This document shows positions 3,567 to 25,139 of a stretch of 29,853 bases of DNA, piece by piece (position 1 is the first letter of the stretch; each line of letters opens with the position of its first letter). Both the position numbers and the translations under genes were made by a program. The stretch spans positions 1 through 29,853 of the IMG/VR virus record IMGVR_UViG_3300033153_004782; one strand, 5' to 3'. The notes below the pieces were generated by a model. The model made no database searches and was not told the DNA's origin. It saw only the letters and a list, made by a program, of their open reading frames with translations. The DNA comes from a virus.

Positions 3567-3650
3567 TTAGCAATTTGCAGCACAGACAAGAAAGCCCATG
3601 CAAAAGAAAATAGTTGCTATTAGTATATTGACAGCTATGTCTAATATCAT
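3567..3650 (-). CDS. 27-residue single-span membrane peptide
   Basis: Starts in an ATGA overlap with the Lar-like gene (SD TTGGAG just before) and encodes a peptide that is almost entirely one hydrophobic helix (NILIATIFFCMGFLVCAA). It would insert in the inner membrane. Small membrane peptides in early phage operons often modulate host functions, but nothing here shows which. Confidence 0.5.
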   Translation of the reverse strand: MILDIAVNILIATIFFCMGFLVCAANC

Positions 3651-3949
3651 TCTCCAAACTCCTTTATATGTTCATATATCAACCCGCTAATATCACCATG
3701 AAGCCTACCAAAATCAGACCAATCACAGGTTACTGCAAGTAACCTTATTTTAATATTCAACCGCCCAATCTCAATAAGGCTGGCATCTTCTTTGGTATGG
3801 GTTCTTTGGTTCCATGATTTAAAGACAGCTTCTTTGTTTTCATCGGGAGCTAAGCACTCAATGTCCCTACAGAATATCCAGTGAGTACCATCTGAGCTGT
3901 CGCACCCTGCGTCACCTCCACAGTGTGGGCAATTTTTTAGTTTAGTCAT
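3647..3949 (-). CDS. Lar-like restriction alleviation family protein
   Basis: 100 residues. The first half matches the Lar-family zinc ribbon: LKNCPHCGGDA at residues 4-14, HWIFCRDIEC in the middle, and EAVFKSWNQR at about 40-49, the usual 'EA...WN.R' end of the domain. Lar of the Rac prophage relieves type I restriction by modulating EcoKI; many phage homologues are untested. The second half (about 50-100) is a predicted alpha-helical extension (SLIEIGRLNIKIRLLAV) not needed for the family and has no motif. Overlaps the upstream gene by 4 bases. The domain call is strong; the anti-restriction role is inference. Confidence 0.75.
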   Translation of the reverse strand: MTKLKNCPHCGGDAGCDSSDGTHWIFCRDIECLAPDENKEAVFKSWNQRTHTKEDASLIEIGRLNIKIRLLAVTCDWSDFGRLHGDISGLIYEHIKEFGE

Positions 3950-4702: not shown

Positions 4703-5073
4703 TTAAAAAAAGCCCTCTCTATGTCTACCATATAGACATTACCGTTTAACACATACCCAAGGCATACGATTAAACTATTTTTTGTGGGGTAGCTTTCTAC
4801 AGGTACAAAGATCTTTTCTACTTCTTTGAAAGTTCTCTCAAAACCTCTGTATAGTTCAGCGTTATAAAAATCATCCTCACCGGCTTCAAACTCATACCAA
4901 GTGCTATCACTATACAAATGAAACTCACCGGCTATATCGGCCCCTAGGAAGACTATGCCAGTATTTCCTACGTGGTCGGGGGCTATGTTTATTGTAACCT
5001 CTACGCCTGTTATATATTGTGCAGTTGCTTGGGCTGGAGTAAAAAATAATAATGCTAAAAATAATGCTTTCAT
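4699..5073 (-). CDS. predicted exported protein with N-terminal signal peptide
   Basis: 124 residues. MKALFLALLFFTPAQATAQ is a typical short Sec signal peptide, with a likely signal peptidase I site after ATA or AQA near residues 17-19; there is no lipobox Cys. The remaining ~105 residues look mostly beta (VEVTINIAP, GIVFLGADIAGEF, STWYEFEAGE, NSLIVCLGYVL). An early gene product sent to the periplasm could act in superinfection exclusion or envelope modification, but nothing in the sequence identifies the role. It starts 6 bases from the end of the upstream gene. Confidence 0.65.
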   Translation of the reverse strand: MKALFLALLFFTPAQATAQYITGVEVTINIAPDHVGNTGIVFLGADIAGEFHLYSDSTWYEFEAGEDDFYNAELYRGFERTFKEVEKIFVPVESYPTKNSLIVCLGYVLNGNVYMVDIERAFFK

Positions 5074-5079
5074 CTAAAC

Positions 5080-5376
5080 CTATTCCTTTTCAAAAGTGTA
5101 ATCTTTGTTAAATGTAACTACATCCACAAAGGTTATTGTTTTTGTTTCTATGTTATTTACAAACCAGCCTTGGCCCCTACATGTTTCTTTGACATCACAA
5201 AATATATAAGGGTAGAGCAATATCCAAAAGGTATCTTTTGCACCTTGCTCTTTGGGGTACTTAAAAACATCACACGCATTTTTTAACCAGGCCGGACTTT
5301 GAGAAAAAGATTTTTCTTCGCCATCCCAAAACCAGGCCGCCATAGCTTGCTTATTTGTTTTGAATACTCTAGGCAT
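5080..5376 (-). CDS. small phage protein of the 'KKP.vveA.qw.g' type
   Basis: 98 residues. The beginning (RVFKTNKQAMAAWFWDG) matches the usual opening of a widespread phage family with the form 'KxRKKPvvieAxqwtG', and the end (GWFVNNIETKTITFVDVV...YTFE) matches its usual 'GDwivkgvkGe...pdiFe.tYe' close. The family is common among phages and has no established function that I know of. The middle carries three Cys. It overlaps the Tad1-like gene by 8 bases, so the two are likely co-translated. Confidence 0.6.
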   Translation of the reverse strand: MPRVFKTNKQAMAAWFWDGEEKSFSQSPAWLKNACDVFKYPKEQGAKDTFWILLYPYIFCDVKETCRGQGWFVNNIETKTITFVDVVTFNKDYTFEKE

Positions 5377-5758
5377 TGCTAGTGCCTTCTACGCCTCTTG
5401 ATTCTCGGTCAACCCTACGCTTCAATGACCACAGCAATGCCTCGTCAAGCTTTGTAATTACCATTGCATTTTCACGACAAGGAAACTTCTTATTTAAACC
5501 CTCAACAATAATCTTCGCAGCTTCGATAAGAGTATCTACCTGGCAACCATTAACACCATTCTCTTTTATGGGGCCGTCTTGGATCTTAAAACTAATCATG
5601 TTTTTGTCGTGGGTAATATGAATAGGAAAGTCTTTTCTGTATCCGTCAAACTTATCCCAATCATTATTGTTTTCTGCTAAGAATAGATTCCTATCTTCCT
5701 CAGTCAATACCTTAAAACCACCAATTTTTGTTAAGCCTTTTAATGTTTCTAATGCCAT
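5369..5758 (-). CDS. Tad1/Acb2-like protein, candidate cyclic-nucleotide sponge
   Basis: 129 residues from ATG 5758, chosen because AAGGAG lies 10 bases upstream; the frame is open further only into the tRNA-like element. Residues 40-73 are beta-rich with a conserved GPI.E.GVNGCQVD block. Residues 76-125 form the helical hairpin (IVEGLNKKFPCREN then ITKLDEALLW), ending RESRGVEGT. This fits what I recall of the Acb2/Tad1 hairpin-domain family: Tad1 binds the signal molecules of Thoeris, and Acb2 binds the cyclic nucleotides of CBASS. The N-terminal part plus hairpin fits Tad1 better than the shorter Acb2. Family placement is from memory, and which ligand it binds, if any, is unknown. It sits 24 bases after the 3' end of a tRNA-like element. 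Confidence 0.68.
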   Translation of the reverse strand: MALETLKGLTKIGGFKVLTEEDRNLFLAENNNDWDKFDGYRKDFPIHITHDKNMISFKIQDGPIKENGVNGCQVDTLIEAAKIIVEGLNKKFPCRENAMVITKLDEALLWSLKRRVDRESRGVEGTSNA

Positions 5759-5782: not shown

Positions 5783-5861
5783 TGGCGGGGGAGGGTGGAC
5801 TTGAACCACCAACCTACCAGGTTAGCTACTTCCTGATGTTCTATCTTGAACTACTCACCCC
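5783..5861 (-). tRNA. degenerate tRNA-like element 1
   Basis: Read on the minus strand (79 bases). The 3' end is encoded CCA (5785-5783) after a G. The T arm is perfect: stem GGTGG/CCACC around loop TTCAAGT. The acceptor stem GGGG(T)GAG/CTCCCCC pairs over 7 bp if one T is bulged. The D-like hairpin is GTTC-AAGATA-GAAC, with no GG in its loop. The central arm ATCAGG/CCTGGT has a 10-base loop (12 if only 5 bp pair) instead of 7, so no anticodon can be assigned. Either a decayed tRNA gene or a tRNA-like RNA with another purpose. A 129-residue gene follows 24 bases downstream. Confidence 0.5.
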
Positions 5862-5864
5862 TTT

Positions 5865-5926
5865 TAAAAAAATGGGCTGGTCGCTCCACGACCATTTAAA
5901 AAAACCTCCCGCCCTTCTTAGGGGGC
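5865..5926 (-). terminator. two hairpins each followed by T7, candidate leftward terminators
   Basis: On the minus strand, GCCC/GGGC (5926-5911) is followed six bases later by T7 (5904-5898). Then TGGTCG-TGGAG-CGACCA (5894-5878) is followed five bases later by T7 (5872-5866). Both are imperfectly spaced for intrinsic terminators. If active they would limit expression of the downstream early genes, or act as processing or antitermination sites ahead of tRNA-like element 1. Confidence 0.4.
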
Positions 5927-5951
5927 TAGGCACGAATTTCACCCGCTTTAT

Positions 5952-6092
5952 TTAAGCTATGATTGCCACCTCGGGATCGGTATTAACGTCTTCAATGTTA
6001 GCTAATACTCTCTTCATCTCTTCGTCAAATAGTTCACCAGCCGCCCCGCGACCGATAGAATCTAAACCAACCTTCTCATACTTTTTTTGCAT
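5952..6092 (-). CDS. 46-residue protein, possibly a shortened 'replication terminator protein' family member
   Basis: ATG at 6092 follows AGAGG by five bases. The product, 46 residues, contains GRGAAGELFDEEMKRVLANI followed by EDVNTDPE. This matches the usual N-terminal half of a phage family often labelled replication terminator protein, with the pattern 'l..GA..E.f..e...vl.Ni.DpNTdp...R.i'. In the family a beta-rich half of about 50 residues follows; here the frame stops six residues after NTDP. It is therefore a truncated or minimal version. It lies between a membrane protein gene and the hairpins at 5865-5926. Confidence 0.5.
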   Translation of the reverse strand: MQKKYEKVGLDSIGRGAAGELFDEEMKRVLANIEDVNTDPEVAIIA

Positions 6093-6118
6093 ACTCACCT
6101 CTTTGTTAAAATATTAAA

Positions 6119-6331
6119 TTATTTTTTTAAACCTGATCTATATCCCTCTAACGCCTCACACAATAACTCTACATTATCCTCCTTTATTCTTTCAACAATG
6201 CAGCTTTTTATTCTTTGTTGTTCATCCGACCAATCGCTTACGAATGATTTTATTTCTCTCACGGATATAACAGCGATTAAAGCTATAACCATAGACAAAA
6301 ATGCTAATAGAAATTTTTCATATCTATTCAT
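6119..6331 (-). CDS. small single-span membrane protein
   Basis: 70 residues. Residues 7-25 (FLLAFLSMVIALIAVISV) form one membrane span, followed by a 45-residue soluble helix (SDWSDEQQRIKSCIVERIKEDNVELLCEALEG) likely on the outer face or in the cytoplasm depending on topology. The AGGGGGG upstream of ATG 6331 is the SD. It begins 14 bases after the 3' end of tRNA-like element 2. Resembles a spanin in size only; there are no lysis genes nearby, so I do not call it one. Confidence 0.6.
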   Translation of the reverse strand: MNRYEKFLLAFLSMVIALIAVISVREIKSFVSDWSDEQQRIKSCIVERIKEDNVELLCEALEGYRSGLKK

Positions 6332-6345
6332 GTTCCCCCCTACGT

Positions 6346-6430
6346 TGGCACCCGCAAAGGGAATTGAACCCCTTGGCCTTGGTTAGCAGAGCTATACAAG
6401 CTACCCAAAGCCTCGAACCATCGAGCCGGT
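6346..6430 (-). tRNA. degenerate tRNA-like element 2
   Basis: Read on the minus strand (85 bases). It ends in encoded CCA (6348-6346). The T arm is AGGGG/CCCTT around TTCAATT. The acceptor ACCGGCT/TGCGGGT pairs at five of seven positions. The D-like hairpin is CTCG-ATGGTT-CGAG. The central arm is long: GGCTTTGG/CCAAGGCC (8 bp), then TAGC/GCTA, with a 12-base loop. Alternatively the arm can fold with loop TTGTATA (anticodon GTA, Tyr) and a long variable region, but the stem is then poor. So it is either a decayed class II tRNA or a tRNA-like RNA. Confidence 0.5.
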
Positions 6431-6435
6431 AAAAG

Positions 6436-6624
6436 TTATTTTCTTTTTCTTTGTTGCGGTGGTGGATTGGTTGTAGCGTCCACCCATTCGGTGACAATTT
6501 GAATCACCGCACGACTAACATAGATATCTGCTTTGTTAGCTTCTTCCTGGAGAAGTGCATAAGTATCTACAGGAATTCTAATACTTATAGATTTTGTTTC
6601 TTTGGTTTCTTTTCTTAAAGTCAT
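6436..6624 (-). CDS. ribbon-helix-helix (Arc/CopG-type) DNA-binding protein
   Basis: 62 residues from ATG 6624. An upstream TTG is also open, but AAAGG lies seven bases before the ATG. The sequence reads as one RHH unit: beta strand KSISIRIP, helix VDTYALLQEEANKA, then YVSRAVIQIVTEWV, followed by a Pro/Gln-rich basic tail (PPPQQRKRK). RHH proteins bind as dimers with the strand in the major groove. It is the first gene of the long leftward operon and divides a 76-base divergent control region with the primase gene. A copy of TGATTTCA lies at 6702-6709, so it is a natural candidate for the factor binding that motif (inference). Confidence 0.8.
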   Translation of the reverse strand: MTLRKETKETKSISIRIPVDTYALLQEEANKADIYVSRAVIQIVTEWVDATTNPPPQQRKRK

Positions 6625-6709
6625 TGCCAAGCCTTTTTTAATATGTAATATTTCTGACTAGAAAAAAACTTACAACATTATATAAAAAAAGGCAAGCGTT
6701 TTGATTTCA
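6625..6709. promoter_or_regulatory. divergent control region between RHH regulator and primase
   Basis: A-T rich. On the plus strand CTGACT (6655-6660) and ATTATA (6678-6683) are spaced by 17 bases as a candidate promoter for the replication genes. The two SDs form mirror images (GCCTTTTTT at 6631-6639, AAAAAAGGC at 6685-6693). TGATTTCA at 6702-6709 overlaps the TTG start of the primase. A leftward promoter must also lie here; TATAAT-like bases are present on the minus strand, without a clear -35. Confidence 0.45.
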
Positions 6710-23447: not shown

Positions 23448-24085
23448 TGCCAATAGAGTTTGATGGTACTCCAAAACATTTAGAATTTGACTCTAGCGAA
23501 TGTCCTGCTAATCTTTTTGCCGGTGGCGGAACAGCTAGTGTATGGTTAAATCTTGCTAGCTGGGGTGGTGATGGTGGAAATGGTCTTGCTAGAATATTCA
23601 ACAAGAATTCCGGTTGGAGAATTTACACAAGAAATCCGATTAAAACTCTGAGTTTCAGGCATCCCTTCAGTGGGACTAATTTAACAGCTACAGCACCGAC
23701 AAATGCTTTTGATGCGTTTGGTATCTGGAAATTATTTACAGTTACTTATGACAACACAAGTGCATCGAATGAGCCTCTTTTTTACATTGATGGCGAGAGT
23801 GTTACAGTCACAATGGAAGATGTGCCAACAGGCACCGCAAATGATGATAGTGCAATGGATATGCGAATTGGAGATTCGTTTTTGAATATCAGATATTTTG
23901 ACGGCATGCTAGCTGATATGAGACTTTACAATAGAATTTTATCCCCAAAAGAAATTAAAGAAATTTATATACAAAAAGGTCAAGATTTTAATGTAAAAGA
24001 TTTAGAGCTATGGCTAAGAGTGAATGAAAAACCAGCGAGCCAAGCAATAGGCACCGGTGAAAAGAACAAAATTAACTATAGATAA
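23447..24085 (+). CDS. LamG/concanavalin-like jelly-roll domain protein
   Basis: 212 residues from ATG 23447, overlapping the previous stop as TAATG; a start 36 bases further upstream is open but inside the fibre gene. It has the LamG_3 order of strands: GGGTASVWLNLASWGG, GWRIYTRNP, KLFTVTYDNT, PLFYIDGESVTV, MDMRIGDS, YFDGMLADMRLYNRILSPKEIKEIY. Domains of this kind bind carbohydrates or proteins. C-terminal 35 residues are a linker ending in IGTGEKNK. The stop codon lies 29 bases inside the next frame, see the frameshift remark there. Confidence 0.75.
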   Translation: MPIEFDGTPKHLEFDSSECPANLFAGGGTASVWLNLASWGGDGGNGLARIFNKNSGWRIYTRNPIKTLSFRHPFSGTNLTATAPTNAFDAFGIWKLFTVTYDNTSASNEPLFYIDGESVTVTMEDVPTGTANDDSAMDMRIGDSFLNIRYFDGMLADMRLYNRILSPKEIKEIYIQKGQDFNVKDLELWLRVNEKPASQAIGTGEKNKINYR

Positions 24086-25139
24086 TAGTGCTAGTAGTGA
24101 AGATCTAGACGACTATCAAATGCTTGTAAGATTGAATACTACTGATATTCCAAACTTGGTTTTAGGATCTACAAGCGGTGCAGACATTCGTTTCACAGAT
24201 AGCCTTGGAACAGAATTAAAATATGAAATTGAAGACTGGAATGATGGATCTGATAGTGCCATCGTTTGGGTTAAGGTTCCTACTATTACTGCAGGTTCCA
24301 CTACAGATTATATCTATGTCTACTATGATTATGACGGTACAGCTACATACGATCAGTCTACAGCAGACGAGCAAGCAGTATGGGATTCAAACTACAATGT
24401 TGTTTATCACTTAAAAGAAAACGGCAACGGCACATTAGACGAGTTTAGAGACAGTACGAGTAATGCTAAACACGGTCAAGGAGGAGGAGGAGACATCGGA
24501 AAAACTCCAACTCAAGTAGCTGCTCAAATTGGTGATGGTCAAGATTTTGATGGTAATGATTATGTAGATATTGCATCAGATGATATAGGTTTTTTAGGAG
24601 CACTTACTATTGAAGTGTGGGCAAACCCTGCTACTAATGAAGTACATTTTGCAGGAAAACATTTAACAAACGGGGTAAGAAATAATCCTTTTGATTTTCG
24701 CACAAATAGTTCAGGAGAAGTTACGGTTGTAAGAGCTGACGCTGGGGGATACAGAATTTTTGAAGGTCCGGCAATCACGACTGGTGTATCGAAAAACTAT
24801 ACCCTCGTTATTCACGACAATTTAATAGAAACTCCTCCGACTATATACATAGACGGTGTCCCAACGGTAATGTCTGATGTTGCAGGATCGAAAATGGGAC
24901 CAGTCACTGGAAGCGGCACAAATTTGCGAATAGGTGAGAGAATAGACGGAGGCCCATCGATGGATGGAGCAATGGATGAAGTACGGATTTCAAAAGTAGG
25001 ACGTTCCGCTGACTGGATTGAAGCCAACTATCTATCACAAAAAGATTCATCTACCTTCATAAGTTTTGGAAGTGAAGAAACGATTGGACCGGTGTATGCA
25101 GAAGGTTTTTTAAGTTATGAATATCAAGTACCGCAGTAA
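24057..25139 (+). CDS. DUF2341 plus LamG-like domain protein
   Basis: 360 residues with GTG start at 24057. Residues 1-110 match DUF2341 (RTKLTIDNSASSEDLDDYQMLVRL...ADIRFTDSLGTELKYEIEDWN...AIVWVKVPTI...DYIYVYYDY). Residues 115-330 are a second LamG-like jelly roll (YHLKENGNGTLDEFRDSTSN, VDIASDDIGFLGALTIEVWA, YTLVIHDN, IYIDGVP, LRIGERID, MDEVRISKVGRSADWI). No convincing SD precedes the GTG. DUF2341 usually begins just upstream of this point with a Trp or Tyr-rich strand, so this could be the second half of one protein joined to the preceding gene by +1 frameshifting or separated by a mutation. Confidence 0.75.
   Translation: MKRTKLTIDNSASSEDLDDYQMLVRLNTTDIPNLVLGSTSGADIRFTDSLGTELKYEIEDWNDGSDSAIVWVKVPTITAGSTTDYIYVYYDYDGTATYDQSTADEQAVWDSNYNVVYHLKENGNGTLDEFRDSTSNAKHGQGGGGDIGKTPTQVAAQIGDGQDFDGNDYVDIASDDIGFLGALTIEVWANPATNEVHFAGKHLTNGVRNNPFDFRTNSSGEVTVVRADAGGYRIFEGPAITTGVSKNYTLVIHDNLIETPPTIYIDGVPTVMSDVAGSKMGPVTGSGTNLRIGERIDGGPSMDGAMDEVRISKVGRSADWIEANYLSQKDSSTFISFGSEETIGPVYAEGFLSYEYQVPQ

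Follow-up and report, generated by a model that had tools for sequence, protein, structure and literature searches.

Degenerate or pseudo tRNAs have been described in phage genomes, namely in T4-like phages (PMC1524935) and in phage CBA120 (PMC3184105). Like these tRNA pseudogenes, the two elements reported here, E1 and E2, are phage-borne, carry tRNA features and have no assignable decoding role. Unlike them, they lie in a window (the whole stretch of DNA analysed, 29,853 nt) in which no intact tRNA was found, whereas the degenerate tRNAs of T4-like phages and CBA120 sit in tRNA-bearing phages or tRNA clusters; moreover, the middle arm is enlarged in both E1 and E2. A change in the anticodon loop is shared with the altered-loop phage tRNAs for which resistance to host anticodon nucleases has been predicted (van den Berg 2023, PMC10264068). 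However, those tRNAs are detected by ARAGORN/tRNAscan and are meant to go on decoding, whereas the loops of E1 (12 nt) and E2 (10 nt) offer no normal anticodon display. A defence theme is likewise common to E1, E2 and the phage tRNAs that rescue from retron-Eco7 or PrrC (Azam 2024, PMC11555353), but the latter replace a cleaved tRNA and E1 and E2 possess no functional anticodon; the known cases in which phage tRNAs overcome tRNA-cutting defences involve intact tRNAs (PMC11555353, PMC10264068). Finally, tmRNA, including its permuted form (RF04321), resembles E1 and E2 in combining a T arm and a CCA end with a middle other than an anticodon arm. It differs in that neither Rfam nor the ARAGORN tmRNA search gave any match between or around the elements, by which we ruled out a tmRNA or two-piece tmRNA.

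Gene setting of the two elements

The window is a fragment of about 29.9 kb from an uncultivated tailed virus, with genes for a terminase, portal, prohead protease, head-tail adaptor, primase and SNF2-type helicase, and the carrier of E1 and E2 is a virus of bacteria or archaea. Its left part is largely a tight row of small leftward genes. Both elements belong to this row: E1 (6430-6346) is flanked by an Arc/CopG-like ORF on one side and a 70-aa ORF on the other, and the neighbours of E2 (5860-5783) are a terminator-like hairpin and a Tad1-like gene. The features of the region are:

6436..6630, minus strand: Arc/CopG-like small ORF that ends shortly before E1 (PHROG and Pfam matches, both weak)
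6346..6430, minus strand: E1, tRNA-like, 85 nt, with encoded GCCA
6375..6412, minus strand: middle arm of E1, 12 bp around one mismatch, with a 12-nt loop (pair probabilities mostly 0.97-1.0)
6357..6373, minus strand: T arm of E1, AGGGG(TTCAATT)CCCTT, followed in the sequence by G and CCA
6119..6331, minus strand: 70-aa ORF with a hydrophobic N-terminus (from the ORF list), starting 14 nt downstream of E1
5878..5894, minus strand: terminator-like hairpin with a T run, found by scan just upstream of E2; the count of such sites is about that expected by chance for the region
5783..5860, minus strand: E2, tRNA-like, 78 nt, with encoded GCCA
5838..5851, minus strand: D arm of E2, GTTC(AAGATA)GAAC, 4 bp with a 6-nt loop (sequence and Rfam alignment)
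5822..5831, minus strand: oversized anticodon loop of E2, AAGTAGCTAA, 10 nt, closed by TCAGG/CCTGG (sequence and Rfam alignment)
5794..5810, minus strand: T arm of E2, GGTGG(TTCAAGT)CCACC, perfect in sequence (pairing probability 0.98)
5369..5758, minus strand: Tad1/Acb2-like gene; its start lies 24 nt downstream of E2

PHROG and Pfam searches assigned no family to the 70-aa ORF. The Tad1/Acb2-like gene, already recognized in the first-pass annotation, is borne out by a phmmer match to the Tad1 structure 8kbb (E 4e-15), with a Pfam Acb2_Tad1_hairpin match below the cut-off. The annotation had also called on this neighbour in aid of the idea that the elements are decoys for tRNA-cutting nucleases, and here it does not help: the Tad1/Acb2 family sequesters the nucleotide second messengers of Thoeris and CBASS, and because its targets are nucleotide signals the gene says nothing on tRNA nucleases. 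Near it lies a gene for a Lar-like restriction alleviation protein (3647-3949, minus strand; Pfam E 9e-8), and the two genes possibly form a small counter-defence region. In the structural region, a protein with a DUF2341 and a laminin-G/concanavalin-like domain (24057-25139, plus strand) is perhaps a receptor-binding protein.

The position of both elements 14-24 nt upstream of a same-strand start codon, together with the terminator-like hairpin preceding E2, brings up the notion that they serve, within the leaders of the next genes, as hairpins for processing or regulation, at which RNase P and 3' processing would cut the operon mRNA ahead of the 70-aa ORF and the Tad1-like gene. However, phage genes and tRNAs are normally packed this tightly, the scanned region has promoter- and terminator-like sites at near chance frequency, and comparison lends no support. 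We regard this explanation as very improbable.

Structure of the elements

In its structural statements, namely a good T arm, an encoded CCA, a D hairpin of 4 bp with a 6-base loop and an odd central arm in each element, the first-pass annotation proved correct throughout, as judged by sequence, Rfam and RNAfold. It overlooked the damaged acceptor stems of both elements, the loss of the D-loop GG in E2 and the absence of the spacer in E1.

E2, read from 5860 to 5783, is GGGTGAG-TA-GTTC(AAGATA)GAAC-A-TCAGG(AAGTAGCTAA)CCTGG-TAGGTT-GGTGG(TTCAAGT)CCACC-CTCCCCC-G-CCA. It matches the Rfam tRNA model RF00005 over its whole length with 40.4 bits (E 2e-5), above the gathering score of 29 and below the class I phage tRNAs compared (46 bits and up). 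Its stems keep 20 of 21 pairs, the single acceptor mismatch being U4xC69. The alignment to the Rfam model places 10 residues in the anticodon loop against the 7 of the model, and the D loop AAGATA has lost G18G19, the GG on which the elbow contact between D and T loops depends. The 5' half of E2, TAGTTCAAgATAGAACATCAG, is close to what we take, from tRNA consensus sequences, to be the standard bacterial tRNA 5' half, so that E2 is a damaged or diverged ordinary tRNA. E2 is certainly derived from a tRNA.

E1, read from 6430 to 6346, begins ACCGGCT and has the D hairpin CTCG(ATGGTT)CGAG and the middle arm GGCTTTGG[G]TAGC(TTGTATAGCTCT)GCTA[A]CCAAGGCC. The acceptor stem contains two mismatches, G4xG69 and U7xU66, and directly abuts the D stem, spacer bases 8-9 being absent. 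Against the Rfam tRNA model it reaches 15.2 bits (E 5.9 in 1 kb), below the threshold, and the case for E1 stands on its T arm, CCA and stable fold; it is probably derived from a tRNA.

Folding with RNAfold, which had been proposed as a check, gave the whole cloverleaf as the minimum-energy fold of E1 (-35.3 kcal/mol for 88 nt, z -2.3), whereas the lowest fold of E2 differs from the cloverleaf (-23.5 vs -21.6 kcal/mol). ARAGORN, likewise suggested, called neither element at default settings; with a relaxed score and introns allowed, both became interrupted Ser(GCT) genes, their anticodon arms carrying inserts of 3 nt and 15 nt. A tRNA intron was rejected, as these inserts lie off the canonical site and no bulge-helix-bulge was discernible by eye. 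So was an amber-suppressor tRNA: CTA occurs in the E2 loop and beside the E1 loop, but in the standard code the reading frames of those phage genes that matched a family are open.

Both elements thus have G73, an encoded CCA and a canonical T arm, but their acceptor stems fall short of seven full pairs (one mismatch in E2, two in E1, that at pair 4-69 being common to both), and loops of 10 and 12 nt replace the usual 7-nt anticodon loop with its U33. A scan of the window for T arms that have a 5-bp stem and are followed by a properly spaced CCA gave two hits, E1 and E2; shuffled windows contained 0.01 on average, and two were never seen in 1000. The sequences and folds, the tRNA homology of E2 and this non-randomness are observed directly. 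When the T arm and CCA were held fixed and the remainder was shuffled, 1.8% of the shuffles of either element formed a cloverleaf. Could E1 then be a chance cluster of hairpins around a T-arm-like sequence, leaving E2 alone as tRNA-derived? The sub-threshold Rfam score of E1 and the cloverleaves formed by its shuffles are in line with this, but a T arm with CCA twice per window is far above chance, and we consider a chance origin of E1 improbable.

Probable tRNA descent and loss of decoding

We favor, with moderate confidence, the view that E1 and E2 are phage tRNA genes that no longer decode. Among the readings offered by the first-pass annotation (decoy, processing signal or old tRNA gene), the last fits best, because the acceptor mismatches, the loss of the D-loop GG and the bigger anticodon loop all remove decoding ability; the decoy reading gained no positive evidence. 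The whole-model Rfam match of E2 and the excess of T arm with CCA over chance also speak for decay. In this scenario the phage would have acquired tRNA genes that subsequently lost their decoding ability and now sit between genes of one leftward cluster. Both would have lost the 7-nt anticodon loop and full acceptor pairing, E2 in addition the D-loop GG and E1 spacer 8-9. We infer transcription, processing and loss of function of both elements: if transcribed, their ends are perhaps still trimmed by tRNA-processing enzymes, which is conceivable given that T arm, CCA and some of the acceptor remain, while the adaptor role would be gone. The survival of T arm and CCA would be owed partly to the fact that these are how the elements were noticed; since E1 and E2 were picked for them, damage can appear only elsewhere. 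If the elements are relics, they add another case of phage tRNA decay overlooked by standard annotation.

Several points weigh against decay. Nearly all stems are intact, including the strong 12-bp arm of E1, a state that decay does not favor; both T arms and CCAs are perfect, in part through the same ascertainment; a comparable non-standard element is clearly conserved elsewhere (see below); and the tRNA descent of E1, at 15 bits, is only probable. The first-pass annotation had added that the deviation common to E1 and E2 speaks against independent decay. This argument turned out to be weak, given both the selection by T arm and CCA and the alignment score of E1 with E2, which is 33.8 against a median of 38.9 in a panel of 342 phage tRNAs. 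Within this panel E1 and E2 have different best matches, and each is as similar to ordinary phage tRNAs as to its partner, or more so. As their likeness does not exceed that of random tRNA pairs, there is no sign that the shared oversize arm stems from one element having descended from the other, and E1 and E2 as duplicates of one gene were rejected on the same ground.

The 3' ends of the elements point to a further explanation. That of E1 matches the 3' half of a Trp tRNA located at one end of Paracoccus phage Shpa, and that of E2 a tRNA-like stretch beside the IN93 integrase gene; an attP core carries just such a T arm, acceptor 3' strand and CCA. The elements might accordingly be attachment-site remnants, host tRNA 3' halves that in a temperate ancestor restored the tRNA upon integration. 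We hold this to be decidedly improbable: no integrase is among the scanned proteins of the window (itself possibly a fragment), the 5' half of E2 is that of a genuine tRNA, and two neighboring sites would be unusual.

Relatives were sought by DNA and protein searches, in part through the primase, terminase, portal and helicase, and none spanned the region of E1 and E2, so that decay and selection are not separable by comparison. The closest finds were a 7.6-kb contig with identical terminase and portal genes, which stops short of the region, and one remote helicase.

Non-standard tRNA-like elements in other phages

The alternative to decay is a function other than decoding: E1 and E2 would be tRNA-like RNAs whose top half, that of a tRNA (acceptor, T arm, CCA), gives processing and stability, while the modified middle arm could serve as a decoy for tRNA-targeting nucleases or as another sponge. 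We think this possible but doubtful. The stems are largely retained while the loops vary, as such a function would have it, and there are precedents, described next; but no homologue of E1 or E2 was found, their acceptor stems are damaged where those of the precedents are not, and evidence for a target is absent, the link from Tad1 to a decoy being without mechanistic basis.

The best precedent is a tRNA-like gene of 86 nt whose 7-bp acceptor stem is perfect and which has D and T arms but a non-standard middle. Three related phage contigs carry it:

L065, 13625-13710, plus strand: tRNA-like gene
L100, 7393-7478, plus strand: the same gene, differing at two positions
L101, about 4824-4909, plus strand: the same gene, identical to that of L065

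The element is 97-100% identical among the three, whereas the upstream flanks of L065 and L100 are unalignable; a promoter-like TACAAT box stands a few bases upstream, and ARAGORN found no tRNA in the stretches of L065, L100 and L101 scanned. The case suggests that phages can retain a tRNA-like gene even when it is not fit for normal decoding. A further non-standard element, GGGGGAG..CTCCCCC with no D arm, a 6-bp arm and a 10-nt loop, lies between genes 57 and 58 of Microbacterium phage Casend. It is identical in 15 Microbacterium phages (Casend and 14 others) and lacks a tRNA annotation, but as this identity may reflect only close relatedness it is weak evidence of conservation.

To gauge how common such elements are, we scanned viral contigs totalling 1.41 Mb for a T arm, near-full acceptor stem and CCA; most of this sequence had been fetched by T-arm patterns, so that it is no random sample. 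The scan yielded 68 stretches, 63 of them called by ARAGORN, and 4.2 Mb of shuffled sequence yielded none. Two of the five uncalled stretches are ordinary tRNAs by eye (L104, L123). The other three have full or near-full acceptors, T arms and CCA with odd middles, and lie in or near tRNA clusters: L077 (12369-12465, plus strand) and L094 (5721-5815, plus strand), both fetched by the pattern itself, and L076 (1885-1962, plus strand). Several T-arm hits that first seemed odd are Leu tRNA variable arms or tRNA 3' halves. Non-standard tRNA-like elements are therefore real, but a small share. It is conceivable, if unlikely, that they form a class scattered among phages, non-decoding RNAs whose top half is a stable processed scaffold and whose middle is free to vary, with E1 and E2 as members and the gene of L065, L100 and L101 as the best example. 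If such elements are kept, as this gene suggests for at least one, phage tRNA counts omit tRNA-like non-decoders with a possible role against tRNA-acting defences.

The loop motif GTAGC..GCTAACC common to E1 and E2 was rejected as a signature. A scan of viral contigs for GCTAACC with a T arm returned 56 stretches, control heptamers gave similar mixtures, and the promising TAACCAT cases (L040, L054) are Leu tRNA variable arms, L054 being Leu(gag) by ARAGORN. The longer motif had one hit in 84,980 genomes, in apparently protein-coding sequence. Rfam matches to permuted tmRNA occur in two viral contigs that have many tRNA genes (L011, 16-297, minus strand; L042, 1640-1917, minus strand). In the related contigs L008 and L037, a tRNA-like stretch lies at the apparent 3' end of a protein gene, with its T arm inside the apparent reading frame.
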